A DNA stretch of 38,036 nt from Pararhodobacter oceanensis (lineage in GTDB: Bacteria; Pseudomonadota; Alphaproteobacteria; Rhodobacterales; Rhodobacteraceae). Where the stretch lies: positions 1-38,036 of the forward strand of contig NZ_QDKM01000016.1 in assembly GCF_003076755.1 (NCBI RefSeq). The letters are read 5' to 3'. Positions 4,479 to 26,373 of this stretch are shown here, piece after piece. The notes under the pieces were generated by a model. The model had not been told where the DNA came from. It was given only the letters and a program-made list of their open reading frames with translations, and did no database searches. The stretch's first letter is position 1. Every line of letters begins with the position of its first letter. The position numbers and the translations under genes are program-made.

Positions 4479-5327
4479 TTGACAATCAAATCACTCGCAA
4501 CTCTCATTTCTGCAGGCACTGTGCTTGCTGTTTCGACGGTCTCGGCGCTGGCCGGTCCTCTGGCCGACCGGATTGAGGCCGGCGAGCCGATCCGTATCGG
4601 CTTCTCGAATATTCCTGTGTTCGGCTATCCTGACGAAAACGGCGAACCCAAAGGCTTTGCCAATGAGATTGCGCTCGGCATCCTGGCGGAAATGGGGCTG
4701 ACCAATGTGGAAGGCATCGTCACCGATTGGGGTGGCCTGATCCCCGGGCTGATGGCCAACCGCTATGATATTATCACCGGTGGGCAGTATATTTTGGGCG
4801 CGCGCTGTGAGAACGTCTCGTTTTCCGAGCCGATCGCGCAGACCGGCGATGCGTTTCTGGTGCCGGCGGGTAACCCACAGAATTTAACCAATTACCAAGA
4901 TATCCTGAACAACCCCGAAACCATTCTGGCGATGTATGCAGGCGGCAACCATGTAGACGCGGCGCGCCGCGAAGGGCTGGGCGACGCGCAGATGATGCAG
5001 TTGCCGGGACCATCCGAAGCTTTGGCCGCGCTGCGTGCCGGACGCGCAGATGCCGCGGCGCTGACGTCCTTCGAGGCCTTCTATATGGCCGACCGATCGG
5101 ATGGGCTGTTCGTCGCTACCGATCCCGCGGCACTGCCCGAGTGGACCTTGAACTGGGTTGGCATTGGGTTTCGCGACGCGGATGCCGATTTCCTCGCGCA
5201 GTTTAATGCTGCACACGCGCGCTACATGGGCTCGGATGAGATGATGGCGGCGATGCAGCAATATGGCTATGTCGATGCCAATCTGCCGGGCGACACCACC
5301 ACGGAATGGGCTTGCGCTAACCGATAA
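4479..5327 (+). CDS. ehuB: Ehu-type ABC transporter substrate-binding protein, copy 1
   Basis: A 282-residue periplasmic solute-binding protein of family 3 (amino-acid/ectoine type). Residues 1-25 form a Sec signal peptide ending VSALA before GP. The core shows the EhuB-like pattern: IRIGFSNIPVFGY near 38-50, VTDWGGLIPGLMANRYDII near 81-99, then ARC and FSEPIAQTGDAFLVPAGNP. In Sinorhizobium EhuB, aromatic residues cage ectoine or hydroxyectoine; whether this one binds ectoine is inferred from similarity only. The start is TTG with AGGAGG six bases upstream. A stem-loop follows the stop, and an asnC gene on the other strand separates it from its near-identical paralogue at 6116. It is set apart from the permease genes, so it may be regulated separately. 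Confidence 0.7.
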   Translation: MTIKSLATLISAGTVLAVSTVSALAGPLADRIEAGEPIRIGFSNIPVFGYPDENGEPKGFANEIALGILAEMGLTNVEGIVTDWGGLIPGLMANRYDIITGGQYILGARCENVSFSEPIAQTGDAFLVPAGNPQNLTNYQDILNNPETILAMYAGGNHVDAARREGLGDAQMMQLPGPSEALAALRAGRADAAALTSFEAFYMADRSDGLFVATDPAALPEWTLNWVGIGFRDADADFLAQFNAAHARYMGSDEMMAAMQQYGYVDANLPGDTTTEWACANR

Positions 5328-5335
5328 GCAAAGCG

Positions 5336-5361
5336 GCAACGGTCGGGGAACCGGCCGTTGC
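5336..5361 (+). terminator. Stem-loop after first binding-protein gene
   Basis: An 11-bp stem (GCAACGG extended by a wobble and TCGG/CCGG) closes a GGAA loop just after the ehuB copy-1 stop. No T-run follows, so it may stabilise the mRNA end or act as a weak terminator between the convergent ehuB and asnC genes. Confidence 0.55.
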
Positions 5362-5407
5362 TCGAGGCGTGATGGCTGCCCGAAGGACTCGGCATCGCGT
5401 TTTCCAC

Positions 5408-5857
5408 TTACAAAATATCAAGCGAGACTTTGACGCGGTCCATAACAATGTTCGAGGTAAACTTGCTGACATTGGATTCGTCGAAGAAATACTCCTGCGT
5501 GAAGCGCTCGTATTCGGCGATATCCGCGACCACAACGACCAGCACAAAATCTGCTTCGCCGGTGGTGTAGTAGCATTGTTGCACCTGCGGCGCGTTGCGC
5601 ATCTTTCGCTTGAAATTCTCGAGGTGCAGGCGGTTCTCGCGCTCAAGCATGACCTGCACGATCACTGTCAGGCTCCGGCCAAGCTGCGACGAGGAGAGCA
5701 CCGCGATCTCCTTCTCAATCACCTTGGTATCGCGCAGCTTTTTGAGCCGCTTTTGCACTGCCGGCGGCGACAATCCGATTTCGGCGGCCAAAGCCTCGGC
5801 AGTGAGCCGAGAGTTCGACTGAATCAGTTTGAGAAGTTCACGATCTTTGCGGTCCAT
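5408..5857 (-). CDS. Lrp/AsnC-family transcriptional regulator
   Basis: A 149-residue regulator with an N-terminal helix-turn-helix (LIQSNSRLTAEALAAEIGLS, then AVQKRLKKL, about residues 10-42) and a C-terminal RAM/AsnC ligand-binding domain (VMLERENRLH; YYTTGEADFVLVVVV; SNIVMDRVKVSLDIL). Such proteins assemble into octamers and sense amino acids or their degradation products. Ectoine catabolic clusters often carry an asnC gene. Lying between the two binding-protein genes on the opposite strand, it probably controls the adjacent ehu genes. An inverted repeat at 6013-6052, just upstream of ehuB copy 2, is a candidate site. The start codon has only a weak GGAA before it. Confidence 0.85.
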   Translation of the reverse strand: MDRKDRELLKLIQSNSRLTAEALAAEIGLSPPAVQKRLKKLRDTKVIEKEIAVLSSSQLGRSLTVIVQVMLERENRLHLENFKRKMRNAPQVQQCYYTTGEADFVLVVVVADIAEYERFTQEYFFDESNVSKFTSNIVMDRVKVSLDIL

Positions 5858-6012
5858 GTTCCGAAATTAGTCGAGGATGGGTGGTTGGTCAATGAATTTC
5901 GTCTCGAAACCCGCAAGATTGATCCCTTTCCCTGTAGTTGCTTGGCTATACCGGATGGACGTCATAGTAGGGGCTGGAGCGCGCTGAACACAACATCCGC
6001 TGGTGAGGTCCT

Positions 6013-6115: not shown

Positions 6116-6964
6116 ATGTCCAAAAAGATCACGAAAACGCTGGTGGCTGCCGGTCTGGTGCTGGCAACAACGGCGCTGACGGCGGTGGCCGGGCCGTTGA
6201 ACGACCGGATCGCAGCGGGCGAGCCGATCCGCATTGGCTTCGCCAATATTCCGGTATTTGGCTACCCGGATGACAATGGCGACCCCAAGGGATTCGCCAA
6301 TGAGATCACGCTCGGCATTCTGAACGAGATGGGGCTGACGGATATCGAAGCCGTGGTCACCGATTGGGGCGGATTGATCCCGGGGCTGATGGCGAACCGC
6401 TACGACATCATCACCGGTGGGCAGTATATTCTGGGGGCACGCTGCGAGAATATCTCGTTCTCGGAGCCGATTGCGCAGACCGGGGATTCGTTTCTGGTGC
6501 CGGCCGGCAACCCCTTGGGCTTGACCAATTATCAAGATATTCTCAACAATCCAGACACGATGCTGGCGCTATATTCCGGTGCCAACACCGTCGGCGCCGC
6601 GCGCCAAGAGGGGCTGACCGACGCGCAGTTGATGCAGTTGCCTGGTCCGACCGAAGTCCTCGCCGCCCTGCGTGCGGGCCGCGCCGATGCCGCGGCGCTG
6701 ACCTCCTTCGAATCGTTCTACCTTGCGGCGGAATCGGATGGCGCATTTGAAGCGCAGGATCCCTCGGCGCTGCCGGATTGGACGTTGAACTGGGTGGGTA
6801 TCGGGTTTCGCGATGAAGACGTCGATTTCCGCGCCGAGTTCAATGAGGCCCACGCGCGCTACATGGGCTCGGACGAGATGATGGCCGCGATGGAGCAATA
6901 CGGTTACGTCGAGAGCAACCTGCCGGGCGCAACCACGACCGAATGGGCCTGTGCCAACCGTTAA
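6116..6964 (+). CDS. ehuB: Ehu-type ABC transporter substrate-binding protein, copy 2
   Basis: This 282-residue paralogue has the same length as the copy at 4479 and most residues identical, including IRIGF-NIPVFGYP, VTDWGGLIPGLMANRYDII and the C-terminal TTEWACANR. Differences cluster in the signal peptide and in the 155-215 region. The signal peptide (MSKKITKTLVAAGLVLATTA) is cleaved near AVA-GP. The start at 6116 follows GAGGAGG; an upstream in-frame ATG at 6074 lacks support. It heads the importer operon with ehuC, ehuD and ehuA and is followed by a stem-loop. The pair is a recent tandem duplication with asnC between copies; the two proteins may differ in substrate range or expression. 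Confidence 0.72.
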   Translation: MSKKITKTLVAAGLVLATTALTAVAGPLNDRIAAGEPIRIGFANIPVFGYPDDNGDPKGFANEITLGILNEMGLTDIEAVVTDWGGLIPGLMANRYDIITGGQYILGARCENISFSEPIAQTGDSFLVPAGNPLGLTNYQDILNNPDTMLALYSGANTVGAARQEGLTDAQLMQLPGPTEVLAALRAGRADAAALTSFESFYLAAESDGAFEAQDPSALPDWTLNWVGIGFRDEDVDFRAEFNEAHARYMGSDEMMAAMEQYGYVESNLPGATTTEWACANR

Positions 6965-6974
6965 GGTGGCTTCT

Positions 6975-7030: not shown

Positions 7031-7696
7031 ATGACGATTGTCGAATTTCTCAGCACATACTGGCCGCGTCTGTTGACCGGCACCGGTGTGACCATAGTTC
7101 AGTTTTTTCTCGCCGCCTTTCTGGGCGTGGCGATATCCCTTGTAATGGGTTTGCTCAAGCTGTCGCCGAACCGGATGTTGCGCGGCTTCGCGATCAGCTA
7201 CATCGAGTTTTTCCGTGGCACATCTTTGCTTGTGCAGCTTTTCTGGATTTTCTATGTGCTGCCGCTATTCGGCGTGTCGATTGACAAATTCACCGCTGGC
7301 TATGTCGCGGTGGGAATGAATATCGGCGGCTACGGGGCCGAATTGGTGCGCGGTGGCATCTTGTCGGTGCGCAAGGGCCAATGGGAGGCCGCGCTGGCGA
7401 TTAATCTGAGCCCGGCAAAGCGCATGTGGCGCATCATCCTGCCGCAGGCGCTGGTCAACATGCTGCCCGCGTGGGGTAATCTGATGATCGAGCTCCTTAA
7501 AGCAACGGCACTGGTGGCGCTGATCTCGGTGCCAGATTTGATGTTCGAAGCGCGCCAAATCAACGGTTCCACCTTCCTGTCGGCGCAAGTCTTCGGCACG
7601 GCGCTGGTGATTTATTACCTCCTCGCACGATTTATGATCACGCCGTTCATGCGGTGGCTGGAACGCTTCATGGCCCGAAAACTGGGAATGGTTTGA
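7031..7696 (+). CDS. ehuC: Ehu-type ABC transporter permease EhuC
   Basis: A 221-residue inner-membrane permease of the His/Glu/Gln/Arg/opine type. Hydrophobic spans cover about residues 12-40, 55-80, 90-110, 150-165 and 190-210. The cytoplasmic EAA loop that contacts the ATPase is WEAALAINLSPAKRMW with IILPQALVNMLPAWGN. Within Ehu systems the permease after the binding protein is EhuC and pairs with EhuD. The start ATG at 7031 has AGGGG upstream. It sits 30 bp after the stem-loop and 3 bp before ehuD, clearly in one operon. Confidence 0.75.
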   Translation: MTIVEFLSTYWPRLLTGTGVTIVQFFLAAFLGVAISLVMGLLKLSPNRMLRGFAISYIEFFRGTSLLVQLFWIFYVLPLFGVSIDKFTAGYVAVGMNIGGYGAELVRGGILSVRKGQWEAALAINLSPAKRMWRIILPQALVNMLPAWGNLMIELLKATALVALISVPDLMFEARQINGSTFLSAQVFGTALVIYYLLARFMITPFMRWLERFMARKLGMV

Positions 7697-7699
7697 GCA

Positions 7700-8365
7700 A
7701 TGTTTGATTGGAAATGGGATTTCGTCTGGGAGATCATGCCGCGGTTGCTGGTCGCCACAGGCAATACATTACTTGCCGCCGGAGCCGGTTACGCCATCGC
7801 CATCGTGCTGGGGCTGGTGTTTGCACTCGCGCAACGCGGCCCGTCGCGGCTGCTGGCGTTTGTGGTGCGCGAGTTGGTCGAGTTCATCCGCTCGACACCG
7901 CTGTTGTTGCAGGTGTTTTTCGTGTTCTTCGTCGGGCCTCAATTCGGCATACGGTTGAGCCCCTGGACCTCGGGCATGATCGCGATCGGCCTGCATTACG
8001 CCTGCTACCTGTCCGAAGTGTACCGCGGCGGGATTGAGAGCGTGCCACGGGGACAATGGGAGGCGTCGACGGCGCTGAACATGTCGACGATCCAAACTTA
8101 TCGCCGGGTGATCATTCCGCAGGCGATCCCGTCGTCGCTGACCGGGATGGGCAACTATCTGGTGGGGATCTTCAAGGATACGCCGATGCTCTCGGTGATC
8201 GGGGTGGCCGAGTTGGTCCATACGGCGAATGCGATCGGCTCGGAACACTACCGCTTTCTTGAACCTCTGACCTTAGTGGGGCTGATTTTCTTGGCAATCT
8301 CGCTACCTGCCGCTGGTTTGATCCGCCTCCTCGAAGGCTATGTGCGCCGCAAATTGGGAATGTGA
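7700..8365 (+). CDS. ehuD: Ehu-type ABC transporter permease EhuD
   Basis: A 221-residue permease, second half of the membrane channel. It has the FIRSTPLLLQVFFVFF segment (near 56-72) common to polar-amino-acid permeases and the EAA loop QWEASTALNMSTIQTYRR with VIIPQAIPSS. Five hydrophobic spans are evident. Its start lies 3 bp after ehuC and its stop overlaps the ehuA start, so translation is likely coupled. Confidence 0.75.
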   Translation: MFDWKWDFVWEIMPRLLVATGNTLLAAGAGYAIAIVLGLVFALAQRGPSRLLAFVVRELVEFIRSTPLLLQVFFVFFVGPQFGIRLSPWTSGMIAIGLHYACYLSEVYRGGIESVPRGQWEASTALNMSTIQTYRRVIIPQAIPSSLTGMGNYLVGIFKDTPMLSVIGVAELVHTANAIGSEHYRFLEPLTLVGLIFLAISLPAAGLIRLLEGYVRRKLGM

Positions 8366-8367
8366 AT

Positions 8368-9183
8368 ATGACGCAATCTTTTGATCATCCGCTGGAAATT
8401 ACTGGCACGCCGCCACCGATGGTAAGCTTTCGCAACGTCTGCAAAGCCTATGGCTCGCTGGTGGTTCTGGACAATCTGAACCTCGATATCAACGCCGGTG
8501 AAATGGTTTCGATTATCGGGCCCTCGGGGTCGGGGAAGACCACCGTGCTGCGCATGTTGATGACGCTTGAGCAAATCAACGGGGGGGTGATTTACGTCGA
8601 CGGTAAACCTCTGACGCATATGCCAAAACACGGCAAACTGGTTCCTGCGAACCAGCGCCATCTGCGCCAGCGGCGGGTGGATATCGGGATGTGTTTCCAG
8701 CATTTCAACCTGTTCCCGCATATGACCGCACTTGAAAACTGCATGGAAGGCCCGGTGCAGGTGCTCGGCATGCGCAAACCCGAGGCGCGCGCGCGCTGCG
8801 AAGAGTTGCTGGAAATGGTGGGCATGATCGACAAGAAGGACCAGCATCCGTCGCGCCTCTCGGGCGGTCAGCAACAGCGGGTGGCAATTGCCCGCGCGCT
8901 GGCGATGCGGCCCAAAGTGATGTTGTTTGACGAGGTGACATCGGCGCTCGATCCCGAAGTGATCGGCGAGGTGACCGAGGTGATCCGCAAGTTGGTCTCG
9001 GAGCATAATCTGACGATGCTGATGGTCACCCACCAGATGGGCTTTGCGCGCGATATTTCGGATCGGGTGTGCTTTTTCTACGGTGGAAAGATCGAAGAGC
9101 AGGGGCCGCCGTCGCAGATTTTCGGCAACCCCGAGCGCGAGCGCACGCAGCAGTTCCTAAGCGCGGTGCGGGAAGCGATTTAA
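8368..9183 (+). CDS. ehuA: Ehu-type ABC transporter ATP-binding protein EhuA
   Basis: A 271-residue ATPase with Walker A GPSGSGKTT (51-59), Q-loop in GMCFQHFNLFPHMT, signature LSGGQQQRVAIARALA, Walker B VMLFDEVTSALD and switch His in VTHQMGFARD. The insertion after the Walker A region, with PKHGKLVPANQRHLRQRR, is a feature I associate with EhuA rather than general GlnQ-type ATPases. The ATG at 8368 could be replaced by a GTG at 8362, which overlaps the ehuD stop as GTGA. It energises import through EhuC/EhuD and ends in a bidirectional stem-loop shared with the convergent lysR gene. Confidence 0.8.
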   Translation: MTQSFDHPLEITGTPPPMVSFRNVCKAYGSLVVLDNLNLDINAGEMVSIIGPSGSGKTTVLRMLMTLEQINGGVIYVDGKPLTHMPKHGKLVPANQRHLRQRRVDIGMCFQHFNLFPHMTALENCMEGPVQVLGMRKPEARARCEELLEMVGMIDKKDQHPSRLSGGQQQRVAIARALAMRPKVMLFDEVTSALDPEVIGEVTEVIRKLVSEHNLTMLMVTHQMGFARDISDRVCFFYGGKIEEQGPPSQIFGNPERERTQQFLSAVREAI

Positions 9184-9222: not shown

Positions 9223-10098
9223 TCAGATCGGATATCCGAATATCTGGGTGAAAAGCGCCCGTATACGTGGTGTCAAAGTGCTGTTGCGGGTCAGCAGGAA
9301 GTAACTGCGTCCGGTATCTAGCGCATAAGCATCGAGCGGCAGCAATTGGCCGGTTTCGATCTGTTTGTGCAACACTTCCGGAGAGCCGAGCGCCGCCCCT
9401 TCGCCACGCAGAGCGGCATCGAGCGTTGCGCCATACGACCGCAGGTTGACCCGCTCCGCGCCATCGAGAAAGGTCTCGCCTTTTAGCGTCGCGAAATTGG
9501 ACCAATTGATCCATTTGAGCGTCAGCTTGTCGAAATCCAGCAACGCCAGCTCGTGCAAATCGTGGTATTTCAGGCTCGGCGCAACGAGCGGCATCCAGCG
9601 CTCCTTGAACAGCAGCGTGGCGTCCCAACCCGGTGGTATTTCGTCGCCGTAATAGATGCAGGCATCGGTTTCGGTGGTCAGAAGGTCGGCGTCATTGTCC
9701 GAGACGGTCAGTGTCAGCGGCGCGGGGTCCGGGGTCAGAAGATAGGCGTTCACCCGCGGCGTTAACCAAAACTGGCTGACTGCAAGATTGGCCGCAAGCG
9801 TCAGTTTGGTGCTCGCCGCCGCATCGCGGATCTGCATCAGCCCGGCATTGAGAAAATCCAAGGATTCTGACGCAATGGTGGCCAGTTTGCTGCCGCTTGG
9901 TGTCAGGGAAATCCGCCGTCCATCGCGCAGCACCAGAGCGCATCCCAACATTGTTTCAAGGTTCTTAATCCGTTTGCTGACGGCAGCTTGGCTGACGCTG
10001 AGCTCTTCCGCCGCGCGGGTGAAGCTGCCGGTGCGCGCGACAGCCTCATAAAACAATATGTAATCCAGCGGCGGGAGTGAGCGGCGATATTTCTTCAT
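9223..10098 (-). CDS. LysR-family transcriptional regulator
   Basis: A 291-residue LysR-type regulator: N-terminal winged helix-turn-helix (FYEAVARTGSFTRAAEELSV, then SQAAVSKRIKNLE, about 16-50) followed by the two-lobed co-inducer-binding domain to the C-terminus. The HTH resembles GcvA/AmpR-like members. It is divergent from the catabolic operon starting at 10252, the standard arrangement for a LysR protein controlling its neighbour. A perfect palindrome with a T-N11-A core covers its own start codon, fitting autorepression. The inducer cannot be told; an intermediate of the substrate imported by Ehu is a fair guess. Confidence 0.85.
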   Translation of the reverse strand: MKKYRRSLPPLDYILFYEAVARTGSFTRAAEELSVSQAAVSKRIKNLETMLGCALVLRDGRRISLTPSGSKLATIASESLDFLNAGLMQIRDAAASTKLTLAANLAVSQFWLTPRVNAYLLTPDPAPLTLTVSDNDADLLTTETDACIYYGDEIPPGWDATLLFKERWMPLVAPSLKYHDLHELALLDFDKLTLKWINWSNFATLKGETFLDGAERVNLRSYGATLDAALRGEGAALGSPEVLHKQIETGQLLPLDAYALDTGRSYFLLTRNSTLTPRIRALFTQIFGYPI

Positions 10099-10251: not shown

Positions 10252-11397
10252 ATGTTCACGCAAAGACTGTCCGAATTTCAAGCGCGGTTGGCCAAAGCCA
10301 ATATCGACGTCGCCCTGATCACTGATGATGACAATGTCTATTACCTAACCGGGTATTATGACTATCTGCATATGGAGTTCGGGCGGCCGACGATTCTTGT
10401 GGTCACCAGTGACGGCAAAAGCCTGTTGATCACGCCGACGATTGACCTGAATTCGGCGCAGGCTGCGGCGCGTGTCGACCGGATCGCGGCGTGGAATGAT
10501 GGTATGGGCGCGGAATGGCGCGCGGAGCTTCCGGCAGCGGTTGAGGGCAAAGCGCGAGTGGCGATTGAGCCCAACCACATGCCGCCCCTTGTGCGCGCCT
10601 ATGTCAACGATCTGGTCGAGCCCTCAAGGATGACCAGCGCGACGCCGATCCTGGCGGATATGCGGATGATCAAATCGCCCGAAGAGCTGCAGATGGCTCG
10701 CCACGCGGGTCAGGTGGCGACGGCAATGATGTATGCCGGACGCGCCGCAATTGCCGATAATGTGGCCGAGTTTGAGGTGGCGATTGCCACCAATCAAGCG
10801 GGCACGCGCAAAGCAGCTGAACTCTTGTCGGCGCATTACAACGATGCGGATATGTCACCGAGCACGCATTTCCTGCAGATCATGGCCTCGGGTCGGGACA
10901 TCATCAAAACCCACCGCCGCGCCTCGACGCGGGTGATGCGCCACGGAGAACCGGTGTTCCTGTGCTTTTGCGGGATGACGAATTTTCACCGCTTCAAGCT
11001 GGGCTTTGATCGCACGTTCTGGATTGGCGAGATTGCGGATAAATCGCAGGCCGATGTCTATCAGGTGGCGGTGGCAAGCCAGCAAGCGGCTCTGGCGGCG
11101 CTGCGTCCCGGCGTGACCGCGGAAAGCGTGCATGCCGCCTATGCCGAAGTGATCCAGGAGGCCGGTTTCGAATATCCGTTCCGCTGCGGGCGCGCCACTG
11201 GCTTCAGCTTTCTTGAGGCGCCGCAACTGGTCACCGGCGACACCACAATCTTGCGGCCCGGCATGGTGCTGGCGGTGGACGGGTCGGTCTCGGTCGAGAC
11301 CTTCCGCGCGCAGGTTGGCGACAGCTTTATCATCACCGACACCGGCTATGAGCCGCTGACCGATCACCCGAAATCCCTTGAAGAGGTTATCATCTGA
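10252..11397 (+). CDS. Creatinase-like M24-family hydrolase without metal ligands
   Basis: A 381-residue protein with the creatinase/prolidase fold: N-terminal domain with YYLTGYYDY and FGRPTILVV (30-52), then ADMRMIKSPEEL and the pita-bread domain. The five M24 metal ligands are not kept: VFLCFCG replaces the first Asp motif, GRATGF replaces the GHG-His motif, and the Glu positions read AVDGS and QVGDSF. In creatinase, which also lacks metal, a histidine is the base; His221 in IKTHRRASTR lies in the corresponding place. Ectoine hydrolase (EutD/DoeA) is another M24 relative. So it likely hydrolyses a C-N bond of the imported substrate; creatine itself is possible but unproven. The start follows AGGAA, and its stop overlaps the next gene (TGATG). 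Confidence 0.7.
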   Translation: MFTQRLSEFQARLAKANIDVALITDDDNVYYLTGYYDYLHMEFGRPTILVVTSDGKSLLITPTIDLNSAQAAARVDRIAAWNDGMGAEWRAELPAAVEGKARVAIEPNHMPPLVRAYVNDLVEPSRMTSATPILADMRMIKSPEELQMARHAGQVATAMMYAGRAAIADNVAEFEVAIATNQAGTRKAAELLSAHYNDADMSPSTHFLQIMASGRDIIKTHRRASTRVMRHGEPVFLCFCGMTNFHRFKLGFDRTFWIGEIADKSQADVYQVAVASQQAALAALRPGVTAESVHAAYAEVIQEAGFEYPFRCGRATGFSFLEAPQLVTGDTTILRPGMVLAVDGSVSVETFRAQVGDSFIITDTGYEPLTDHPKSLEEVII

Positions 11398-13480: not shown

Positions 13481-13490
13481 AAGAGCGGAT

Positions 13491-13775
13491 ATGATCATAT
13501 TAAACTGCCCCTTTTGCGGGCCCCGCGATCACAGCGAATTCGACTACGGCGGCGATGGCTCGATCACGTATCCTTCGCTCGATGCACCGGTTGAAGACTG
13601 GCACGCAGCGGTGTTCCTGCGCGATAACATCTGCGGCGTGCAGACCGAAACTTGGCAGCACACGCAGGGCTGCCGCATGTGGCTTTTGGTCGAGCGCGAC
13701 ACGATGAGCCACGAGGTTCACAGCATCCGCCCGGCGCATCCGGGCCATGCAGCGGTGCTGGAGGGCAAAGTATGA
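13491..13775 (+). CDS. soxD: Sarcosine oxidase subunit delta
   Basis: A 94-residue protein with the zinc site of the delta subunit: CPFCG (Cys6, Cys9) plus His57 and Cys61 in WQHTQGCRMW. It helps hold the heterotetramer together. The ATG at 13491 is preferred because MIILNCPFCG is the expected N-terminus; the frame is open further upstream inside soxB. Its stop overlaps the soxA start (ATGA), so translation is probably coupled. Confidence 0.88.
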   Translation: MIILNCPFCGPRDHSEFDYGGDGSITYPSLDAPVEDWHAAVFLRDNICGVQTETWQHTQGCRMWLLVERDTMSHEVHSIRPAHPGHAAVLEGKV

Positions 13776-18484: not shown

Positions 18485-18491
18485 GAACAGA

Positions 18492-18519
18492 AACGGCCCG
18501 TGCGTTGCGGGCCGTTTTT
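18492..18519 (+). terminator. Rho-independent terminator after Rieske gene
   Basis: AACGGCCCG pairs with CGGGCCGTT across a TGCGTTG loop and is followed directly by a T-run (18515-18519). It is the strongest terminator in the window and closes the plus-strand operon; the convergent M24 gene ends just beyond. Confidence 0.9.
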
Positions 18520-18550: not shown

Positions 18551-19723
18551 TCAGATCACCGGCAGCTCAGGCGCGGCGCGTGTGCTCAACAGCACTCCGC
18601 CGTCAGGCCCGACGATGATGTTTTCTTCATGCACCATCATCAGCCCCTCGCCGTAGCTCAGGCAGGGCTCCAAAGTCAGCACCATGTTCTCACGCAGCAC
18701 CGTGGTGTCGCTCTCCATATGCGAGGGTTGCTCGGTCAATTGCAGGCCCAAGCCGTGCCCCATGCGGCCGATGTCGCCGCCACTGGTGTCGAGCTCGGCG
18801 ATCACCTGCGACATCGCCCGAAACAGCTCGCGGCAGGTGTTGCCGGGGCGGGCGGCGGCGAGACCGGCTTCGGTGGCGCGCCAGAGCACGTCATAGGCGC
18901 GTTTGGCGGCGTCGCTGGCGGTGCCGATGGCCCAATTGCGGTCGAAATCGCAGTAATAGCCGTCCCAGGTGCAGCCAGTGTCGATCATCAACACATCGCC
19001 GCGCGCCAGCGGCGTGATCCCCGGCGGCGAGATGCAATCGGCATAGCCGCCCTCCGCCGCGGCGCCGACCACATAGGGCGCGTCATCGGCCCCTTGGCTG
19101 AGCGCTTCACGGCGGAACTCGCGAAACACCGCGTCAAGCGGCATGCCCTCGGCGACGATCTCGGGGACGCGCGCGAAGGTGGCCGAACCGATGCCGCAGA
19201 TATAGGCCAGCTTCTCGATCTCGGCGGCGGATTTGGTCATCCGCAACCCTTGCACCAGACCGGTGGCATCGGCGATCTGCAACCCGGGGAGGGCGGCGCG
19301 CAAACGCTCCCAATCGCCCAGTGGCATGCGCAGCATGGTTTCATGGCCCTTGAGCACGCCGAGCCGGGCCTTGGCGCCGTTGAGCGGCGACAGGAGCTCG
19401 GTCAACAGGCTGATGCCGTCGTCTGCGGGGGTGGGCGCGGCCCAAGTGCGGATGTCCTCGACCCAGGTGCGGCGCATCAGCTCGGCGCCGATTTCGGGGA
19501 TCACCGCCACGGGTTTGCCAGCAGCCGGCACAAAGACAAACCACGGCCGCGTCGGGCTTTGCCAGAACAGGCTGCGAAAGCCGGTGAAGTAATAGACCTC
19601 GGCCTCGGTCATCAACAGCAGCCCGGCGAGCCCGGCCTCGGCCATCAGGGCCTGTGCCTTGGCGGTGCGGGTCTCGAATTCCGACCGCGCAAAGCCGCGG
19701 GCGGGCGTGGGGTTAGGCGACAT
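18551..19723 (-). CDS. M24-family metallopeptidase (Xaa-Pro-type), metal site intact
   Basis: A 390-residue pita-bread hydrolase. In contrast to the M24 protein at 10252 it keeps all five metal ligands: Asp248 (LMIDTG), Asp259 (YYCDFDRN), His323 (GRMGHGLGLQ), Glu352 (LTLEPCLS) and Glu366 or Glu367 (VHEEN). It should bind two metal ions and cleave an X-Pro or similar amide bond; a dipeptidase or ectoine-hydrolase-like role is possible. It overlaps dpaL by 11 bp with GGAG before the start, and is the last gene of the three-gene minus-strand operon. Confidence 0.8.
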   Translation of the reverse strand: MSPNPTPARGFARSEFETRTAKAQALMAEAGLAGLLLMTEAEVYYFTGFRSLFWQSPTRPWFVFVPAAGKPVAVIPEIGAELMRRTWVEDIRTWAAPTPADDGISLLTELLSPLNGAKARLGVLKGHETMLRMPLGDWERLRAALPGLQIADATGLVQGLRMTKSAAEIEKLAYICGIGSATFARVPEIVAEGMPLDAVFREFRREALSQGADDAPYVVGAAAEGGYADCISPPGITPLARGDVLMIDTGCTWDGYYCDFDRNWAIGTASDAAKRAYDVLWRATEAGLAAARPGNTCRELFRAMSQVIAELDTSGGDIGRMGHGLGLQLTEQPSHMESDTTVLRENMVLTLEPCLSYGEGLMMVHEENIIVGPDGGVLLSTRAAPELPVI

Positions 19724-20906
19724 TCTGGGGCTCCATGATGCGGTTGAAGATCGCCGGATCGGTGACCCCTTCGGAGCCGATCAACAGCACCCTTGCCTCG
19801 GCACCGAGTCCGAGCTTTGCCGCCAGCCCCGCATCTTGGCGCGCAGCGATCAGTGCGGCAAGCCCTGCGACAGCACTTTCCCCTGCCTCAACCGCGGTGT
19901 CACCGGCCAGCGGGCGCGCGAGCAGCCGGATTGCAGGCGCGACCATGGCCTCGGGCAGGGTGATGAAATCGCTGCTTTCTTCGACCAATATCTCCCACGC
20001 CAGTGGCGAGGGTTCGGCGCAGGACAGTCCCGCCATCAGGGTTTCGCTTTCAATGTTGAAGGCGACCGGCGCGCCGGCTTTGCCGCTTTCAAACAGACAG
20101 GCGGCGAGTTCGGGTTCGACAATGATCACGCGTGGAGAGCCGTCCCCATAATGCTGGCGCAGCGCTGCCGCGACCCCGGCGGCGAGGCCGCCGACGCCGC
20201 CTTGCAAGAACACATGGCTTGGCGCTTCGGGCAGCGCGTCGCAGATTTCCTGCACCATCACTCCGTAGCCGGCTTTGACATCAAGGGGCGGCAGCGAATA
20301 GCCCTCCCATGAGGTGTCGGAGACCACGAACCAGCCGTTGGCCGCGGCTTCGGTTTTGGCCAGATCGACGGAATCGTCATAGTCGCCTTTGATCCGGATC
20401 ACCTCGGCACCAAGCGCCCGCATCGCCTCGGCACGGCCGTCCGAAACCAGCGCATGGATGTAGATTTTGCACGGCGCGCCAAAGCGTTGGCAGCCCCAGG
20501 CCAGCGAGCGCCCATGGTTGCCAGCGGTGGCCGAGACCAGCGTGATCTGAGCGGCCTCGTCTTTATACTTGCCGTTGCGAATGTCGGCGAGCGCCACCTC
20601 GCGGCCCAATTTGCGGCCGATCTCGCGTTGCAACACCCGTAGCGCCGCATAAGCGCCGCCAAGCGCCTTGAAACTGCCCAGACCAAAGCGCGGCCCTTCG
20701 TGTTTATAGAGAATTTCCCCGATACCGATGTCCCTAGCCAGCGCTTCCAGCGAGATCAACGGAGTCGGCGCATAGCCGTCCCACTGCGAAATCTCCGCTG
20801 CGGCGGTGGCGTAGTCCTCCTTGCTGATCACGCGGTGCGCGGCGTCGCCCTGGCGGCGTTCAAAGGAGATATGGCGCAGGCCGGTGGCGGGGAACCGGTG
20901 TTGCAT
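19713..20906 (-). CDS. dpaL: Diaminopropionate ammonia-lyase (PLP enzyme)
   Basis: A 397-residue fold-type II PLP enzyme. The PLP lysine is Lys80 in RFGLGSFKALGGAYA; SATAGNHGRSLAWG and the glycine-rich FLQGGVGGLAAGV hold the cofactor. The DTSWEGY segment corresponds to a catalytic Asp in diaminopropionate ammonia-lyases, separating it from threonine dehydratase. The known reaction turns 2,3-diaminopropionate into pyruvate and two ammonia. EutB, a related PLP lyase, has a comparable place in ectoine clusters. Its start lies 3 bp after the M20 gene, with AAAGGA upstream. A diaminopropionate-like piece of the imported substrate is the natural guess. Confidence 0.8.
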   Translation of the reverse strand: MQHRFPATGLRHISFERRQGDAAHRVISKEDYATAAAEISQWDGYAPTPLISLEALARDIGIGEILYKHEGPRFGLGSFKALGGAYAALRVLQREIGRKLGREVALADIRNGKYKDEAAQITLVSATAGNHGRSLAWGCQRFGAPCKIYIHALVSDGRAEAMRALGAEVIRIKGDYDDSVDLAKTEAAANGWFVVSDTSWEGYSLPPLDVKAGYGVMVQEICDALPEAPSHVFLQGGVGGLAAGVAAALRQHYGDGSPRVIIVEPELAACLFESGKAGAPVAFNIESETLMAGLSCAEPSPLAWEILVEESSDFITLPEAMVAPAIRLLARPLAGDTAVEAGESAVAGLAALIAARQDAGLAAKLGLGAEARVLLIGSEGVTDPAIFNRIMEPQNVA

Positions 20907-20909: not shown

Positions 20910-22055
20910 TTAATCCTTTCGGGGGGCTAGGCGTTCTCGCACCAGATCGGCCCAGAAATGGGCGCCGATGGGCAGGACCGCGTCGTTGAAATCATAGGTG
21001 TCGGAATGGAGCGGCTGGCCGTGGGGGCCGGTCTCGCCGTTGCCGATCAGCAGGAAGGCGCCCGGCACGGCGGCGCAGAAATGGGCGAAGTCCTCAGAAA
21101 AGCTCATCGCCGGGCGGTCGTCGATGGTCTCAAGCCCCGAGGCGCGGGCGGTGCGGGCGGCGGCTGCCGTGGGCTCGGGCGCGTTGATCGTCTCGATGAA
21201 CACGGTGTCAAAGGACATTTCCGCGCTAACCCCATGCGCCGCGGCAACGCCGTCAACGATCTGGCGCATGAAACGCGCGACCGCTTGGCGGTCCTCGGGC
21301 TGGCGGGCGCGCACATCGCCCTTCAGCGTCGCGCGGCCCGGCAGGACGTTGCGCTGGCCATCGGTGAGAAACTCGGTCACCGAGACCACCGCCCCGGCGC
21401 CGGGCGCGAGTTTGCGCGCGACAATGGTTTGCAGCGCGGTCACTAGTTCGGCACCAACGGTGATCGCATCCACGCCGACATGGGGCATCGAGGCGTGGCC
21501 GCCCTGGCCGGTGATCTCGATTTCAAACAGGCTTTCGCTGGTGCAAATCTGCCCCACCCGCGTCGAGATCTGCCCTACCGGAGCGCCGGGGAGGTTGTGG
21601 AACGCATAGACCTCCTGAAGCGGGAAACGCTCGAGCACGCCCTCATTGATCATCGCCAAAGCGCCTTCGCCGTGCTCCTCATTGGGCTGGAACAGAAACA
21701 CCACAGTGCCGTCGAAATCGCGTGACTTTGCAAGGAGTTCGGCAGCGCCAAGCAGCATTGTCATGTGGCCATCATGGCCGCAGGCGTGCATCTTGCCCGG
21801 GTTTTGCGAGGCGTAGTCATGGGTGCTTGCCTCGGTAATCGGCAGCGCGTCCATATCCGCGCGCAGCCCGATGGCGCGGTTGCCGGAGCCGATCTTCAAC
21901 AGACCGACAACGCCGGCGCCCTCATGCACCTCGATACCCAACGCGCGCAGATGCTCTGCAACGCGGGATTTGGTGCGGATCTCGTCAAAACCGAGCTCGG
22001 GATCGCGGTGAAGCGCGCGCCGCAGATCGGTCAATCGGGAGTGGAATTCGGTCAT
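20910..22055 (-). CDS. M20-family amidohydrolase (hippurate/N-acyl-amino-acid type)
   Basis: A 381-residue metal-dependent amidohydrolase: GLRADMDALPI (near 63-73), MHACGHDGHM (89-98), the catalytic PNEEHGEGA, AFHNLPG and the C-terminal HSDTYDFND. These match the M20D group that removes acyl groups from amino acids or cleaves indole-acetyl or hippurate conjugates. In Eut-type routes the deacetylation of N-acetyl-diaminobutyrate is done by EutE/DoeB, so this enzyme may play that part for an N-acyl-diaminopropionate-like intermediate (inference). GAGGG precedes the ATG. It heads the operon M20-dpaL-M24. Confidence 0.82.
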   Translation of the reverse strand: MTEFHSRLTDLRRALHRDPELGFDEIRTKSRVAEHLRALGIEVHEGAGVVGLLKIGSGNRAIGLRADMDALPITEASTHDYASQNPGKMHACGHDGHMTMLLGAAELLAKSRDFDGTVVFLFQPNEEHGEGALAMINEGVLERFPLQEVYAFHNLPGAPVGQISTRVGQICTSESLFEIEITGQGGHASMPHVGVDAITVGAELVTALQTIVARKLAPGAGAVVSVTEFLTDGQRNVLPGRATLKGDVRARQPEDRQAVARFMRQIVDGVAAAHGVSAEMSFDTVFIETINAPEPTAAAARTARASGLETIDDRPAMSFSEDFAHFCAAVPGAFLLIGNGETGPHGQPLHSDTYDFNDAVLPIGAHFWADLVRERLAPRKD

Positions 22056-22213: not shown

Positions 22214-22258
22214 CTAGTTCCGCGTCCGGTCCCGCGTCTAGTCCCGCGACTGGCCCTG
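22214..22258. repeat. 12-bp tandem repeat over the gntR stop codon
   Basis: Units CTAGTTCCGCGT, CCGGTCCCGCGT, CTAGTCCCGCGA and a partial CTGGCCCTG lie head to tail. On the minus strand they encode the last residues SRD and the stop of the GntR gene, then repeat the same pattern after it, including another in-frame stop. Slippage here would lengthen or shorten the tail. Confidence 0.6.
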
Positions 22259-23005
22259 TGGTGGCGCTGAGACAATCGCGCGGGCGGTGAATTCGGCCAA
22301 TTCCCCGCGCCAGATTTGGGTGCCGAAACAAAAGGCTACACCCGAGGCATCGCGGGTGATTTGTTGCAACTCGATGCCCGCGTGATAGGGCTCGACGCCC
22401 AGCTGGTCGGCCTCGGCGGGTTGCATCGCGCGCATGCGAATGGTGATGTCGCCGGTATGCGCCTCGGTGGCATAGTGGCGCTCCAAGATGCGGGTGGTCG
22501 ACTGGCTTAGATCATAGTCGAGCAGGTCCGGAAACCGCTGTGCGACGACGCTCTCGACCTCTAGAAACGCCGCATGCCCGTCGATCAGGAAGAGGCGCGT
22601 ATAGCTGTGCAGGGGCGCGCCCTCGGCCACCGAGAGGGCGCGGGCGAGTTCGGGTGTTGCGGGCTGCGTGATCTTGTCGAGCACCTCGATATGCAGGCTG
22701 CCGGTAGTGGATTGCGCCTCGGCGGCGAGGCTCAGCTTGTGGGTGATGTCATAGCTCAGGCGGCGCGGCGAGACGAAACGCCCTTTGCGACCGGTGCGGT
22801 AGCTCACCCCTTCGGTGTCCAACACTTCAAGCGCCCGGCGCGCGGTCATCCGGCTCACGCCTTCTTCCTCGGCCAAGCTGCGCTCGGATGGCAGCGCCTG
22901 ATGGGGCGCAAGTCTGCCCGACTGGATCGATGCGCGCAGGGTATCGGCGATCTGGCGAAAACGGCGCGGCGCGGTGTTTTCGGATGAGAGCGGGCGGTCC
23001 GGCAT
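22238..23005 (-). CDS. GntR/HutC-family transcriptional regulator
   Basis: A 255-residue regulator: N-terminal winged helix (RRFRQIADTLRASIQSGRL, PSERSLAEEEGVSRMTARRA, about 14-65) and a C-terminal UTRA ligand domain, the HutC subfamily. The ATG at 23005 is chosen over one at 23026 because GAAAGG stands six bases upstream. HutC-type repressors bind GTnTAnAC palindromes, and two perfect ones lie in the 97-bp gap to the divergent eutA-like gene. So it most likely represses itself and the eutA-like/DMGDH operon until an intermediate binds. Its tail contains a tandem repeat. Confidence 0.87.
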   Translation of the reverse strand: MPDRPLSSENTAPRRFRQIADTLRASIQSGRLAPHQALPSERSLAEEEGVSRMTARRALEVLDTEGVSYRTGRKGRFVSPRRLSYDITHKLSLAAEAQSTTGSLHIEVLDKITQPATPELARALSVAEGAPLHSYTRLFLIDGHAAFLEVESVVAQRFPDLLDYDLSQSTTRILERHYATEAHTGDITIRMRAMQPAEADQLGVEPYHAGIELQQITRDASGVAFCFGTQIWRGELAEFTARAIVSAPPQGQSRD

Positions 23006-23040
23006 GTGATGCCTTTCAAGTTTCATTTGACGAGGTGTCT

Positions 23041-23102: not shown

Positions 23103-23882
23103 ATGCATGGAACCCAGCAGTCACCCCATCAATATATTGAATCATTTGCGTTCGAGACCGACGCAGGGCTAGGGGCCGGCGCGCGACTCGGCCTGATCGT
23201 GTTGCAGACCGACCAGACCATCGAACATGAGGTGGGCGCTCTGCTACGGGGTGACGGGCGCGCGCTATATCACGCGCGAATTGCCAACCAGACCGAGGTG
23301 ACGCCGGAGACCCTGCGCCAGATGGAGGCCGATCTGCCCGCTGCCGCAGCGCTTTTGCCTGCGGACTTTGCGTTCGATGTTATCGGGTATGGTTGCACGT
23401 CGGGCGCGACAATAATTGGCGAGTCGCGGGTGGCGAAAATCATCCGGCAGGTGCATCCAGAAGTGAAGGTCACAGATCCTGTGAGCGCGCTCAAAGCCGC
23501 GCTAGCCGCGATGGGGATAACCCGCATGGCGTTAGTCACGCCCTATGCGCCGTCTGTGACACAGGCCCTGCAGGACAATCTGCAAGCCGCCGGTATCCAG
23601 ATCAATGCCGTCGCGTCATTCAACCAAATCGATGATTTCACGGTTGCACGGATCACCAGTGACAGTATCGCGACGGGACTTCGTGCGATCGGTAAACGCG
23701 AAGATTGCGAAGCGATTTTCGTGTCCTGCACAAGTTTGCGAACGCTTCCGGTGATCGCGGCCGCCGAAGCGGAATTGGGCAAGCCGGTGTTGTCCAGCAA
23801 TCAGGTTCTAAGCTGGCATATGTTGCGGCTCGCTGGTCAGACTAGCTCGCCATCCGGTGCTGGCTGCCTGTTCGATCATTAA
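23103..23882 (+). CDS. Asp/Glu racemase / maleate isomerase family protein (EutA-like), copy 2
   Basis: A 259-residue protein of the same family as the one at 11397, but well diverged. It keeps both active-site cysteines, Cys98 in GYGCTSGATIIGES and Cys209 in FVSCTSLRTLPV, and ends in PVLSSNQVLSWHML. Such enzymes catalyse racemisation, decarboxylation or cis-trans isomerisation without a cofactor. It is the first gene under the HutC operators and precedes the DMGDH-type gene by 40 bp. Two EutA-like enzymes in one cluster suggest two steps or two stereoisomers. TTGGAG supports the ATG at 23103. Confidence 0.72.
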   Translation: MHGTQQSPHQYIESFAFETDAGLGAGARLGLIVLQTDQTIEHEVGALLRGDGRALYHARIANQTEVTPETLRQMEADLPAAAALLPADFAFDVIGYGCTSGATIIGESRVAKIIRQVHPEVKVTDPVSALKAALAAMGITRMALVTPYAPSVTQALQDNLQAAGIQINAVASFNQIDDFTVARITSDSIATGLRAIGKREDCEAIFVSCTSLRTLPVIAAAEAELGKPVLSSNQVLSWHMLRLAGQTSSPSGAGCLFDH

Positions 23883-23922
23883 TCCAACACCTCACATATA
23901 GTTGCATTCAAGGGCTTCTCTC

Positions 23923-26373
23923 ATGGCAAAACCTCTCCCCTCCCATGCCCAGGTCGTCATCATCGGCGGCGGCATTCACGGCTGCTCGGTCGCTTATCAT
24001 CTGGCGCGCGAGGGCTGGAAGGATGTGATCCTGCTGGAACGCAAGCAATTGACCAGCGGCACGACTTGGCACGCCGCCGGTCTCGTGGGCCAGTTGCAGG
24101 GCAGCCACGCCACCACCGCCTTTGCCAAATACGGGATCGAGCTGCTCGAGAGCATCGAGGCCGAGACCGGGCAGAATCCGGGATATCGCCGCTCGGGCTC
24201 AATCTCGATTGCGACCAATACTGAGCGCTTTGCCGAACTCAAACGCAAGGCGGACTTCGCCAAACTCTTTGGCATCGAAGCGCATCACATGTCCACCGCC
24301 GAGATCAGCGAGCGCTGGCCTCTGGTGAACCCCGACGGCGTGCTCGGCGGCATCCATATGCCCTCGGACGGCTCGGCTAACCCGATTGACCTGACCAACG
24401 CTTTGGTCAAAGGCGCACGGATGCACGGCGCGACGATCCGCGAGCATGTCAAGGTCGAAGAGGTGTTGGTCGAGGGCGGAAAAACGCGCGGCGTGCGCAC
24501 CGATCAAGGCACGATCTTTGCGGATATCGTTGTCAACTGCGGCGGCATGTGGGCGCGCGAGCTGGGGCAGAAAAACAACGTCGGGGTCCCGCTTCACGCC
24601 TGTGAGCACTACTATTTGGTGACCGAGGCGATCCCCGATCTACCCGCCGATCTGCCAGTGCTGCGCTCCTATTGTGACGGCACCTATTGGAAGGAGGACG
24701 CCGGCAAGCTGCTGTTCGGCTTTGCGCATTTCCACGCCAAAGCTTGGGCCGCCAAGGGCATCCCTGAAGAGTTCTGTTTCGACAGCCTCCCGTTCATCGA
24801 GGATGACGTAATGGAGGTCTTGGAATTGGCGATGAACCGCGTGCCCCTGTTGCAAGAGACCGGTATCCGCACCTTCTTTAACGGGCCGGAAAGCTATTCC
24901 TATGACGGGCGTTTCACCTTGGGACCGGCGCCGGATCTCGAGGGCTATTATGTTCTCGCGGGTGTGAACTCGACCGGCATCCAGTCCGGTCCGGGGGCCG
25001 GAAAGGCTTTGGCCGACTGGATCATCAAGGGCCACGCGCCGATGGACCTCGCCGAGATGGACCCCGCGCGCGTCGAAGAGTTCCAGACCCGCGATCCCTA
25101 TCTGCAAGAGCGCTGCCCCGAGACTTTGGTGCTGACCTACGCAATGCATTGGCCGAACCGGCAGCGCGAAACTGCGCGTAATCTGCGCCGCTCGCCCTTC
25201 TACCACCCGATGAAAGCACGCGGCGCGTGTTTTGCCGAGGTGCAGGGCTGGGAGCGTCCGGCTTGGTTTGCCACCGAGGGGATGGCGCCCGAATTCGAAT
25301 ACAGTTTTGGGCGACAGAACTGGTTTGACTGCGCGCAGGCCGAGCAGAAGGCGGCGCGCGAAGCGGTGGCGATGATCGATTATTCGATGCTTGGCAAATT
25401 GATGATCGAGGGACGCGACGCCGAGGCCTTCTTGCAGCGCCTCTGCACCAACAACATGGGGATGCGCCCGGGCCGTGTGGCCTATACGCTGATGCTGAAC
25501 CCACGCGGCGGGATCGAAAGCGATGTCACCGTGGCGCGCCATGGCCCCGAATCCTTCATGATGATGTGTTCGATCTCGCACACCCGTCGCGACCTGCTGC
25601 ATCTTCAGCGCAATATCGCAGAGGGCGAGGATGTGCGGCTGCGCGATGTGACCACCGCCTACGGGGTGCTGGGGCTGATGGGGCCGTCAAGCCGCGCCGT
25701 GCTCGCCGAGGTGTCCGGCATTGATGTCTCCAACGAAGCCTTCCGGTTCAACAGCTTGCAGCGTTTCCACATCGGCCATGCGCCGGTGTTCGCACAGCGG
25801 CTGTCCTATTCTGGCGAGCTGGGTTGGGAAATATTCGCAACGCCGGATTTCGCTGAACATGTGTTCGAGGTGCTCGAAGCCGCTGGCCAAAACCACGGGC
25901 TGCGCTTGATCGGCGGCGAGGCGTTGAACGCGCTGCGCATTGAGAAGGGCTTTGTGCATTGGGGCCACGACATGTCCTATACCGAATCGCCGCATCAGAT
26001 CGGAATGGATTTCGTGTGCAAGCCGGACAAGCCGGTCCCCTTCATCGGGCGCGACGCCTATCTGGCCCGCAAGGCCGAGAACAAGGGGCCTTTCCTTTGT
26101 GCGATCAAATTGGCCGATCCCGAGCCGCTTTTGCACCACAACGAACCGGTGCTTAGGGATGGCAAAGTGGTGGGCTATGTCACCGCCGGCGCCTATGGCT
26201 ATAGCAGCGGGGCGGCCGTCGGACTGTGTCTGTTGTCCCCCCCCGAGGGCACCTCCGGGCGCGAAGCCTTGGCGGCCGGCGCCTATAGCGTCTTGGTCGA
26301 GGGCAAAGCGATCGCCGCCGATATCAGCTTGACGCCATTCCACGATCCCCAAAGCCGGCGGATGCTGGGATGA
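23923..26373 (+). CDS. Dimethylglycine/sarcosine dehydrogenase-type flavoprotein with GcvT domain
   Basis: An 816-residue enzyme. The N-terminal half is an FAD oxidoreductase (VVIIGGGIHGCSVAYHLA, 11-28; ERKQLTSGTTWHAAGL with His50 in the position that binds FAD covalently in DMGDH and sarcosine dehydrogenase). After an FAO_M linker the C-terminal half is a GcvT-like folate domain with C-terminal barrel (LSYSGELGWEIF, EALNALRIEKGFVHWGHD). The known reaction oxidises an N-methyl group and passes the carbon to tetrahydrofolate. The exact substrate is unknown. The ATG at 23923 with AGG upstream is preferred to a TTG at 23902. It ends before a stem-loop. Confidence 0.82.
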   Translation: MAKPLPSHAQVVIIGGGIHGCSVAYHLAREGWKDVILLERKQLTSGTTWHAAGLVGQLQGSHATTAFAKYGIELLESIEAETGQNPGYRRSGSISIATNTERFAELKRKADFAKLFGIEAHHMSTAEISERWPLVNPDGVLGGIHMPSDGSANPIDLTNALVKGARMHGATIREHVKVEEVLVEGGKTRGVRTDQGTIFADIVVNCGGMWARELGQKNNVGVPLHACEHYYLVTEAIPDLPADLPVLRSYCDGTYWKEDAGKLLFGFAHFHAKAWAAKGIPEEFCFDSLPFIEDDVMEVLELAMNRVPLLQETGIRTFFNGPESYSYDGRFTLGPAPDLEGYYVLAGVNSTGIQSGPGAGKALADWIIKGHAPMDLAEMDPARVEEFQTRDPYLQERCPETLVLTYAMHWPNRQRETARNLRRSPFYHPMKARGACFAEVQGWERPAWFATEGMAPEFEYSFGRQNWFDCAQAEQKAAREAVAMIDYSMLGKLMIEGRDAEAFLQRLCTNNMGMRPGRVAYTLMLNPRGGIESDVTVARHGPESFMMMCSISHTRRDLLHLQRNIAEGEDVRLRDVTTAYGVLGLMGPSSRAVLAEVSGIDVSNEAFRFNSLQRFHIGHAPVFAQRLSYSGELGWEIFATPDFAEHVFEVLEAAGQNHGLRLIGGEALNALRIEKGFVHWGHDMSYTESPHQIGMDFVCKPDKPVPFIGRDAYLARKAENKGPFLCAIKLADPEPLLHHNEPVLRDGKVVGYVTAGAYGYSSGAAVGLCLLSPPEGTSGREALAAGAYSVLVEGKAIAADISLTPFHDPQSRRMLG

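Follow-up and report, generated by a model that had tools for sequence, protein, structure and literature searches.

A conserved gene island in Pararhodobacter oceanensis joins an ectoine-type transporter to predicted N-demethylases and a putative hydrolase-deacylase-lyase core

The 38,036-base contig NZ_QDKM01000016.1 of Pararhodobacter oceanensis was analysed over its whole length and is referred to here as the window. The genome comprises 4.08 Mb in 32 contigs. An initial annotation, made from the sequence alone, had placed a catabolic island between positions 4,479 and 26,373, likened it to the ectoine genes ehuABCD-eutABCDE and noted additional N-demethylating enzymes. We revisited this island using searches for open reading frames (ORFs) and the Pfam and NCBIfam family models; the NCBIfam run covered 20 window proteins. 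Every gene on the original list was recovered (Table 1). The layout is EhuB1, AsnC (reverse strand), EhuB2-C-D-A, LysR (reverse), M24a-EutAa-SoxB-D-A-G-Rieske, M24b-DAL-M20-GntR (all reverse) and EutAb-DMGDH. Here, M24a and M24b are M24 hydrolases, EutAa and EutAb are EutA-like proteins, DAL denotes the diaminopropionate ammonia-lyase family and DMGDH dimethylglycine dehydrogenase.

Table 1. Features of the island, with coordinates in the window and the evidence for each assignment. Bit scores refer to NCBIfam models unless stated.
Feature	Position	Strand	Evidence
EhuB1, substrate-binding protein, ectoine-receptor type	4479..5327	+	TIGR02995 184.7 bits, just below cut-off 190.9; 79% amino acid identity to EhuB2
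Lrp/AsnC regulator	5408..5857	-	Pfam AsnC_trans_reg 1.1e-19
EhuB2, substrate-binding protein	6116..6964	+	TIGR02995 190.0 bits, just below cut-off 190.9; best PDB match EhuB 2q88; cage residues
EhuC permease	7031..7696	+	TIGR03004 236.9 bits, cut-off 196.95 passed
EhuD permease	7700..8365	+	TIGR03003 279.3 bits, cut-off 205.2 passed
EhuA ATPase	8362..9183	+	TIGR03005 399.1 bits, cut-off 345.4 passed
LysR regulator (GcvA-like)	9223..10098	-	family search; same place in 12 long Rieske loci
M24a, predicted metal-free hydrolase, creatinase/EutD fold	10252..11397	+	start from sequence; listed ORF begins 10180
EutAa, two-cysteine EutA/maleate-isomerase superfamily protein	11397..12209	+	family search, alignment
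SoxB, sarcosine oxidase beta subunit family	12209..13480	+	TIGR01373 605.4 bits, cut-off 529.45 passed
SoxD, delta subunit	13489..13775 (start approximate)	+	Pfam SoxD 4e-27
SoxA, alpha subunit	13772..16729	+	TIGR01372 1200.6 bits, cut-off 1164 passed
SoxG, gamma subunit	16722..17294	+	TIGR01375 60.4 bits, under cut-off 143.95; operon position
Rieske oxygenase, predicted group V type	17330..18484	+	family search, residues
10-pair hairpin between convergent Rieske and M24b genes	18491..18517	.	consensus match only
M24b, M24 hydrolase with all five metal ligands	18551..19723	-	family search, alignment
DAL, diaminopropionate ammonia-lyase family pyridoxal phosphate (PLP) enzyme, Ala at Asp120 position	19713..20906	-	family search, alignment
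M20 amidohydrolase/deacylase	20910..22055	-	family search
GntR-UTRA regulator	22238..23026	-	family search
EutAb, second two-cysteine EutA-like protein	23103..23882	+	family search, alignment
DMGDH-type folate-linked N-demethylase, putative	23902..26373	+	477 bits to solved dimethylglycine dehydrogenase 4pab

The gaps between genes from M24a to Rieske are only -8 to +35 bases, and hence this run is read as an operon. Neither a tRNA nor an Rfam match at the gathering score was found in the window. Pfam and NCBIfam bear out the two EutA-like, two M24, PLP ammonia-lyase-family and amidohydrolase genes described initially. The Ehu-type importer was also correctly recognised, except that it has two EhuB genes, one on either side of asnC.

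The Rieske protein was used to query a genome collection with one genome per species (84,980 species). The closest relatives were found in roseobacters and on one Aminobacter plasmid. There were 33 Rieske loci; 13 shared 74-78% identity with the query, one (L023) shared 57% and 19 shared 32-41%. Twelve of the 13 close loci, from 11 genomes, were long enough to read. The thirteenth is a 5-kb contig carrying SoxA-SoxG-Rieske. All 12 long loci have ehu-lysR-M24a-EutAa-sox-Rieske in the window order, except that one stretch (L015) begins at EhuA and that soxB, soxD and soxA were not found in another (L022). Part by part, protein identity is 69-91%, with lower values for LysR (53-59%), SoxG (43-53%) and EhuB where seen (63%). 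All 12 have a DMGDH gene (79-83%) upstream of ehu, and EutAb with a divergent GntR gene is likewise always present. An M24b-type gene occurs in 11 of the 12 (54-56% identity, or 78% in Roseovarius ZX-A-9). On a plasmid of Roseovarius pelagicus all parts are contiguous, with one EhuB, in the order M24b-DAL-M20-GntR-EutAb-DMGDH-AsnC-EhuBCDA-LysR-M24a-EutAa-SoxBDAG-Rieske. Roseovarius ZX-A-9 has the same complete run. The window order is the Roseovarius order rotated, with the second ehuB at the left end; this arrangement suggests that a circular or tandem intermediate may have been involved.

Parts of the island were also found further afield. The Aminobacter plasmid, from another order of Alphaproteobacteria, carries M20, a 38% identical DAL-like gene, AsnC, two EhuBs, EhuCDA, LysR, M24a, EutAa, Sox and Rieske, together with genes annotated as a 2Fe-2S protein and a flavin adenine dinucleotide (FAD) oxidoreductase. 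One further genome (G193) has Ehu-DMGDH-M24b-EutAb-GntR-M20-DAL-AsnC. A plasmid of Parasedimentitalea marina bears a fragmentary EhuB-to-EutAa stretch, in which M24a is split into five matching pieces. Of 248 evenly sampled genomes of the family, one, the window's own, yielded the island Rieske at E<=1e-90; hence, the unit is rare but scattered. The island is a conserved set and chance juxtaposition is ruled out. According to the initial annotation, the idea of one island should be abandoned if its transcription units never travel together. This is contradicted, since 11 other roseobacter-type genomes (12 loci), two plasmids and one additional genome each carry the unit, either entire or in large part.

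The transporter resembles that for ectoine. EhuA, EhuC and EhuD pass their model cut-offs and both EhuB proteins fall just short. In the ectoine receptor, we take Phe24, Tyr60 and Phe80 to form an aromatic cage, Arg85 to bind the carboxylate and Glu21 to accept a hydrogen bond. Alignment of EhuB1 and EhuB2 revealed aromatic residues at all three cage positions and Arg at position 85. Glu21 is replaced by Ile in both proteins; the other 15 roseobacter rows, which represent 14 distinct loci, show the same change. One of the Aminobacter EhuBs has Ser instead of Phe24. Loss of the hydrogen-bond acceptor would fit a receptor for a methylated cation.

We next consider the demethylating enzymes. The Rieske protein contains the motif NFMEGYH, in which Phe occupies the place of Tyr203 of the carnitine monooxygenase CntA and Glu that of the bridging residue Glu205. 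Both residues are kept in 15 of 16 non-window homologues sharing at least 55% identity; the exception, L023, has Asp at the Glu. PMC7948474 uses these two positions as the criterion for quaternary-ammonium (group V) oxygenases. The N-F-x-E-G-Y-H motif is shared with CntA. Conversely, the Cys-X-X-Cys pair of CntA and Stc2 is absent from the window protein, which has Gly and Leu there, and no reductase was recognised in the window. The Cys pair is ascribed to just "some Group V" members in PMC10952381. By its aromatic residue and bridging Glu, the window Rieske is predicted to be of group V and to oxidise a quaternary ammonium group. The DMGDH-type protein has DAO, FAO_M and GCV_T domains and retains the His of TWHAAGL, which we take to be functionally important. 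It matches dimethylglycine dehydrogenase in architecture and in this residue; the substrate assignment is putative. For the heterotetrameric sarcosine oxidase, SoxB and SoxA exceed their subfamily cut-offs, SoxD is recognised by Pfam and SoxG scores under its own cut-off (60 against 144). Elsewhere in the genome are three further SoxB genes (48-59% identity) and seven further DMGDH-like genes (32-49%); at such low identities, the island copies are distinct paralogues. The initial annotation had listed three N-demethylating systems. These are present and, because the Rieske protein carries group V residues, are best read as successive demethylations from a quaternary ammonium. Together, they would suit stepwise loss of three N-methyl groups.

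Such a series raises the possibility of ordinary glycine betaine or creatine use. The Rieske protein would then be GbcA, followed by DMGDH and Sox, and M24a would be a creatinase yielding sarcosine and urea. The enzyme trio does fit the series from glycine betaine through dimethylglycine and sarcosine to glycine, as outlined in PMC3691474, and the window shares with that route a Rieske protein, a dimethylglycine-type demethylase and a heterotetrameric sarcosine oxidase. However, the Rieske protein scores 134 bits with the GbcA model NF058607 (cut-off 670) and no GbcB was recognised. In the Colwellia operon, as shown in the same paper, glyA and purU lie beside sox; neither does so in the window. 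Furthermore, the island has additional hydrolases and a lyase, and its transporter is of the ectoine type.

The creatinase part of this explanation depends on M24a. Its best PDB match is creatinase 1chm, with which it shares the fold family, the FGRP motif and a His. None of the five M24 metal ligands, presumably D-D-H-E-E, is found in M24a; creatinase also lacks them. M24a is therefore predicted to be metal-free; this stays a prediction because Asp occupies its two Glu ligand places. Conversely, M24b retains all five ligands. M24a scores 86 bits with 1chm, at ~24% identity, compared with 539 bits for a true creatinase of Ruegeria haliotis, and creatinase active-site residues are altered. In a 32-row tree, M24a, M24b and EutD formed three separate groups with full support; creatinase joined M24a weakly (82/67) on a long branch. 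M24a thus has its own clade and is predicted to be a metal-free hydrolase that is neither EutD nor creatinase. Hence, although the Ruegeria haliotis creatinase is itself accompanied by transporter, EutA-like and M24b genes, we regard use of glycine betaine or creatine as improbable. In that Ruegeria haliotis stretch (L024, 972-12266) the creatinase lies with the ATP-binding cassette (ABC) transporter, EutA-like and M24b genes and is adjoined by two tandem Rieske genes; it is possibly a creatine route with a EutA-like protein.

An alternative starting point is a variant of ectoine or 5-hydroxyectoine breakdown. The clusters for these compounds (ehuABCD-eutABCDE, enuR and asnC), described in PMC5924519, share with the island an Ehu transporter, AsnC and EutA-like, M24, deacylase (here M20) and PLP lyase proteins of related superfamilies. 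There, too, an inverting racemase role for EutA and a PLP dehydratase role for EutB are proposals. Against an ectoine route, none of the 20 window proteins passed the cut-offs for EutA, EutB, EutC, EutD or EnuR, and no EutE match was found among the NCBIfam matches listed for them. The absence of EutC had been noted initially and is upheld. With the EutD model TIGR02993 (cut-off 613 bits), M24a scored 83.4 and M24b 55.8, and neither groups with EutD. The genome's one EutD match at E<=1e-100 is isolated and, at 573 bits, below the cut-off. The receptor has lost Glu21, and the three demethylases would have no role because ectoine has no N-methyl group. In another genome (G036; L150, 1460-11778), a EutD of 650 bits, over the cut-off, shares one stretch with ABC transporter genes and EutAb-M24b-DAL-M20, which favours an ectoine connection. 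Overall, a variant ectoine pathway seems very improbable. The canonical ectoine, glycine betaine and creatine readings were rejected on profile scores and clades. A second eut-like cluster lies elsewhere in the Pararhodobacter oceanensis genome (C5, about 232000-250000). It encodes a LysR-type regulator, DAL-like (38%), M24b-like (52%) and EutA-like (44%) proteins, an ornithine cyclodeaminase/EutC-like protein and an ArgE/DapE deacylase.

Both EutA-like proteins fail the cut-off of the EutA model TIGR02990 (183.8 and 173.1 bits against 318). Two cysteines are present in EutAa, in EutAb and in all 57 rows of each EutA alignment. For this superfamily, we assume that two cysteines indicate a racemase or isomerase and one a decarboxylase. 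On this basis, a racemase or isomerase fits EutAa and EutAb better than a one-cysteine decarboxylase.

The remaining enzymes, M20, DAL and M24b, form a module of their own. DAL passes the cut-off of PRK08206 (459.7 bits against 276) and fails those of TIGR03528 (299 against 532) and EutB (71.7 against 413). Like Escherichia coli DAL (4d9g), it keeps the equivalents of Lys77 and Asp189; unlike that enzyme, it has Ala in place of Asp120. PMC4000059 gives Lys77 and Asp120 of the E. coli protein as potential catalytic residues. Asp120 is kept in 45 of 48 non-window DAL rows, among them a second DAL copy of the same genome (C5, 223215-224402; 82% identity); the other three rows are paralogues of 36-38% identity. 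The window copy may have altered specificity or be decaying. The initial view that EutB is replaced by DAL was right in that DAL is present and fails as EutB. It was too simple, given that M20-DAL-M24b is a separate module and the window DAL is atypical. M20 scored 321 bits with the DoeB2 model (cut-off 550).

The module accompanies the demethylation genes more often than background. M20 at 70% identity or more occurs in all 11 genomes that carry the ehu-Rieske unit (the unit genomes), compared with 26 of 247 background genomes at a threshold of 59%. The genome containing L023 (G259) has an M20 of only 49%. DAL of at least 69% identity is found in nine of the 11, compared with 18 of the 247 at 60% or more. 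Fisher tests gave p values of 1e-10 for M20 and 2e-8 for DAL, or 3e-7 and 3e-6 after collapse to seven lineages of our own grouping; these are guides only, because the two genome sets were drawn differently.

M24a also points to M20. M24a, near full length and at least 66% identical, occurs in 17 other genomes of the family; in the stretches read, M20 was beside or near it in 11 of these. In one (G038), LysR (56%) and EutAa (64%) adjoin M24a at a contig end. Another (G190) has a 31% identical DMGDH-like gene and a third (G223) two Rieske-type genes (31 and 37%), each a few kb from M24a. M24a may thus pair with M20 as EutD does with EutE, demethylation being an addition.

Some observations weigh against one demethylating pathway. 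First, eight unit genomes have M20 and M24b at a separate locus, away from the ehu-Rieske unit. Six of these loci are M20-DAL-M24b (DAL 68-76%), one (G257) has M24b and M20 without DAL, and in one (G251) M20-M24b is accompanied by a DAL-like gene of 36% identity. Among 12 genomes searched, G251, G257 and G259 had no DAL at E<=1e-80, the 36% homologue of G251 aside. Aliiroseovarius, Phaeobacter, Agrobacterium, Photobacterium and Ruegeria carry all or part of the module in the absence of the demethylation genes. Furthermore, the island's own DAL lacks Asp120. Second, island-type Rieske, Sox and DMGDH orthologues were absent around M24a in all 17 other genomes, over the stretches read. Since M24a is found without these demethylases, and often near M20, it is not specific to N-methyl substrates and could serve an unmethylated one. 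Its predicted structure is also poor (predicted local distance difference test score 48.2, from a 10-row alignment). Third, the association is incomplete. The 11.7 kb of L023 show Rieske as their one island gene, the 19 low-identity Rieske loci lack the unit, no DMGDH was seen on the Aminobacter stretches read and G193 is without the M24a-to-Rieske part. Finally, the window genes searched included no recognisable ferredoxin or reductase partner, and at position 21 one Aminobacter EhuB has Glu and the other Gln.

These patterns could instead reflect two independent neighbours. Ehu-fed N-demethylation (Rieske, DMGDH, Sox, M24a, EutAa and EutAb) would then lie beside an unrelated M20-DAL-M24b route for acylated diaminopropionate-like compounds. 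Consistent with this, M20-DAL-M24b was unlinked in eight of nine unit genomes where the M20 locus was read, and in other bacteria it has its own transporter and often its own AsnC. The transporter is of the tripartite ATP-independent periplasmic (TRAP) type in Photobacterium and an ABC system in Agrobacterium; the Agrobacterium version has no M20 and an annotated Zn-dependent hydrolase. Conversely, the window and two Roseovarius strains have the modules joined (in ZX-A-9, M20-DAL-M24b is attached to the ehu-Rieske unit), as do G193 and Aminobacter in part. Co-occurrence is far over background, in genomes that are related and sets that were drawn differently, and M20 is close to M24a in most of the 17 genomes described above. 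We therefore consider two independent pathways a real but less probable explanation.

A single pathway that includes M20-DAL-M24b is likely. More specifically, we see about an even chance that the island is one catabolic unit, in which a demethylation front end acts on a core of EutD/EutE-like hydrolase, deacylase and lyase. By analogy, it would work like a eut-type route preceded by a glycine-betaine-like demethylation series. From the observed gene content, linkage, co-occurrence and active-site residues, we infer all of the reactions, their order and the substrate. EhuB1/B2-CDA would take up a small zwitterion with a methylated cation. The Rieske oxygenase, using electron donors from elsewhere, would remove the first methyl from the quaternary nitrogen as formaldehyde. 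The DMGDH-type enzyme and then SoxBDAG would remove the second and third, each passing a one-carbon unit to tetrahydrofolate. The two-cysteine EutA-like proteins might invert a stereocentre. M24a and M24b would hydrolyse a C-N bond in an amidine, an amide or a ring, M20 would remove an acyl group and the DAL-family enzyme would eliminate ammonia from a diamino acid to leave an oxo acid.

The best class of substrate would be a zwitterion that bears three methyl groups and is built on a diamino-acid core, either acylated or cyclised. The initial suggestion, an N-methylated, cyclic or acylated diamino acid, still fits best. A bolder possibility is that the compound is of the 2,3-diaminopropionate type, acylated or cyclised and in its trimethylated (betaine) form, and that the island encodes the first route known for it. 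Such a compound would be an unrecognised N-methylated ectoine-like marine osmolyte or metabolite. The Ehu receptor would be re-tuned for methylated cations, and three demethylations and ring or acyl hydrolysis would precede cleavage by DAL to an oxo acid and ammonia. We think this unlikely. Homarine was rejected as a substrate; the literature, as far as consulted, gave no gene set matching the island. β-N-methylamino-L-alanine (BMAA) was also rejected, as nothing in the literature consulted links it to the island; a review reports BMAA in diatoms and DAL acting on diaminopropionate. Within the open PubMed Central literature, a scope that leaves preprints aside, we found no description of this gene combination, in line with the initial annotation, which knew of no pathway with this set. 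The parts are familiar and the combination looks undescribed.

Genes to the right of the island were considered separately. A neighbouring unit (26826-33814) encodes an Opp-type ABC transporter, a class II aldolase and an AraC/GbdR-like regulator (32840-33814; 206 bits, cut-off 480). It was not found beside the island in relatives, one locus (L010) having a single 83% identical ABC gene ~8 kb past Rieske, and hence its genes were rejected as island members. The initial count of four regulators stands for AsnC, LysR and GntR-UTRA; the fourth, tentatively put down there as GlxA-type, is the AraC/GbdR-like protein and is probably outside the island. Towards the contig ends are an IS3-type transposase ORF (1781-2764) and an ORF (36354-37895) whose match to an integrase core is weak (20.3 bits, under the cut-off). 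An Xre/MbcA/ParS-type antitoxin-like protein is encoded at 641-1162 on the reverse strand.

Roseobacters rank among the main consumers of dissolved organic nitrogen from algae. To our knowledge, many of the methylated zwitterions that they eat have no known catabolic genes. The island is conserved, and is plasmid-borne in two relatives. Its combination of an ectoine-type receptor, a complete series for trimethyl demethylation and a core of hydrolase, deacylase and lyase suggests a substrate outside the ectoine and glycine betaine pathways as described in the papers cited here. Genes that can be deleted singly, and a receptor that can be screened, make the identity of that substrate directly testable.

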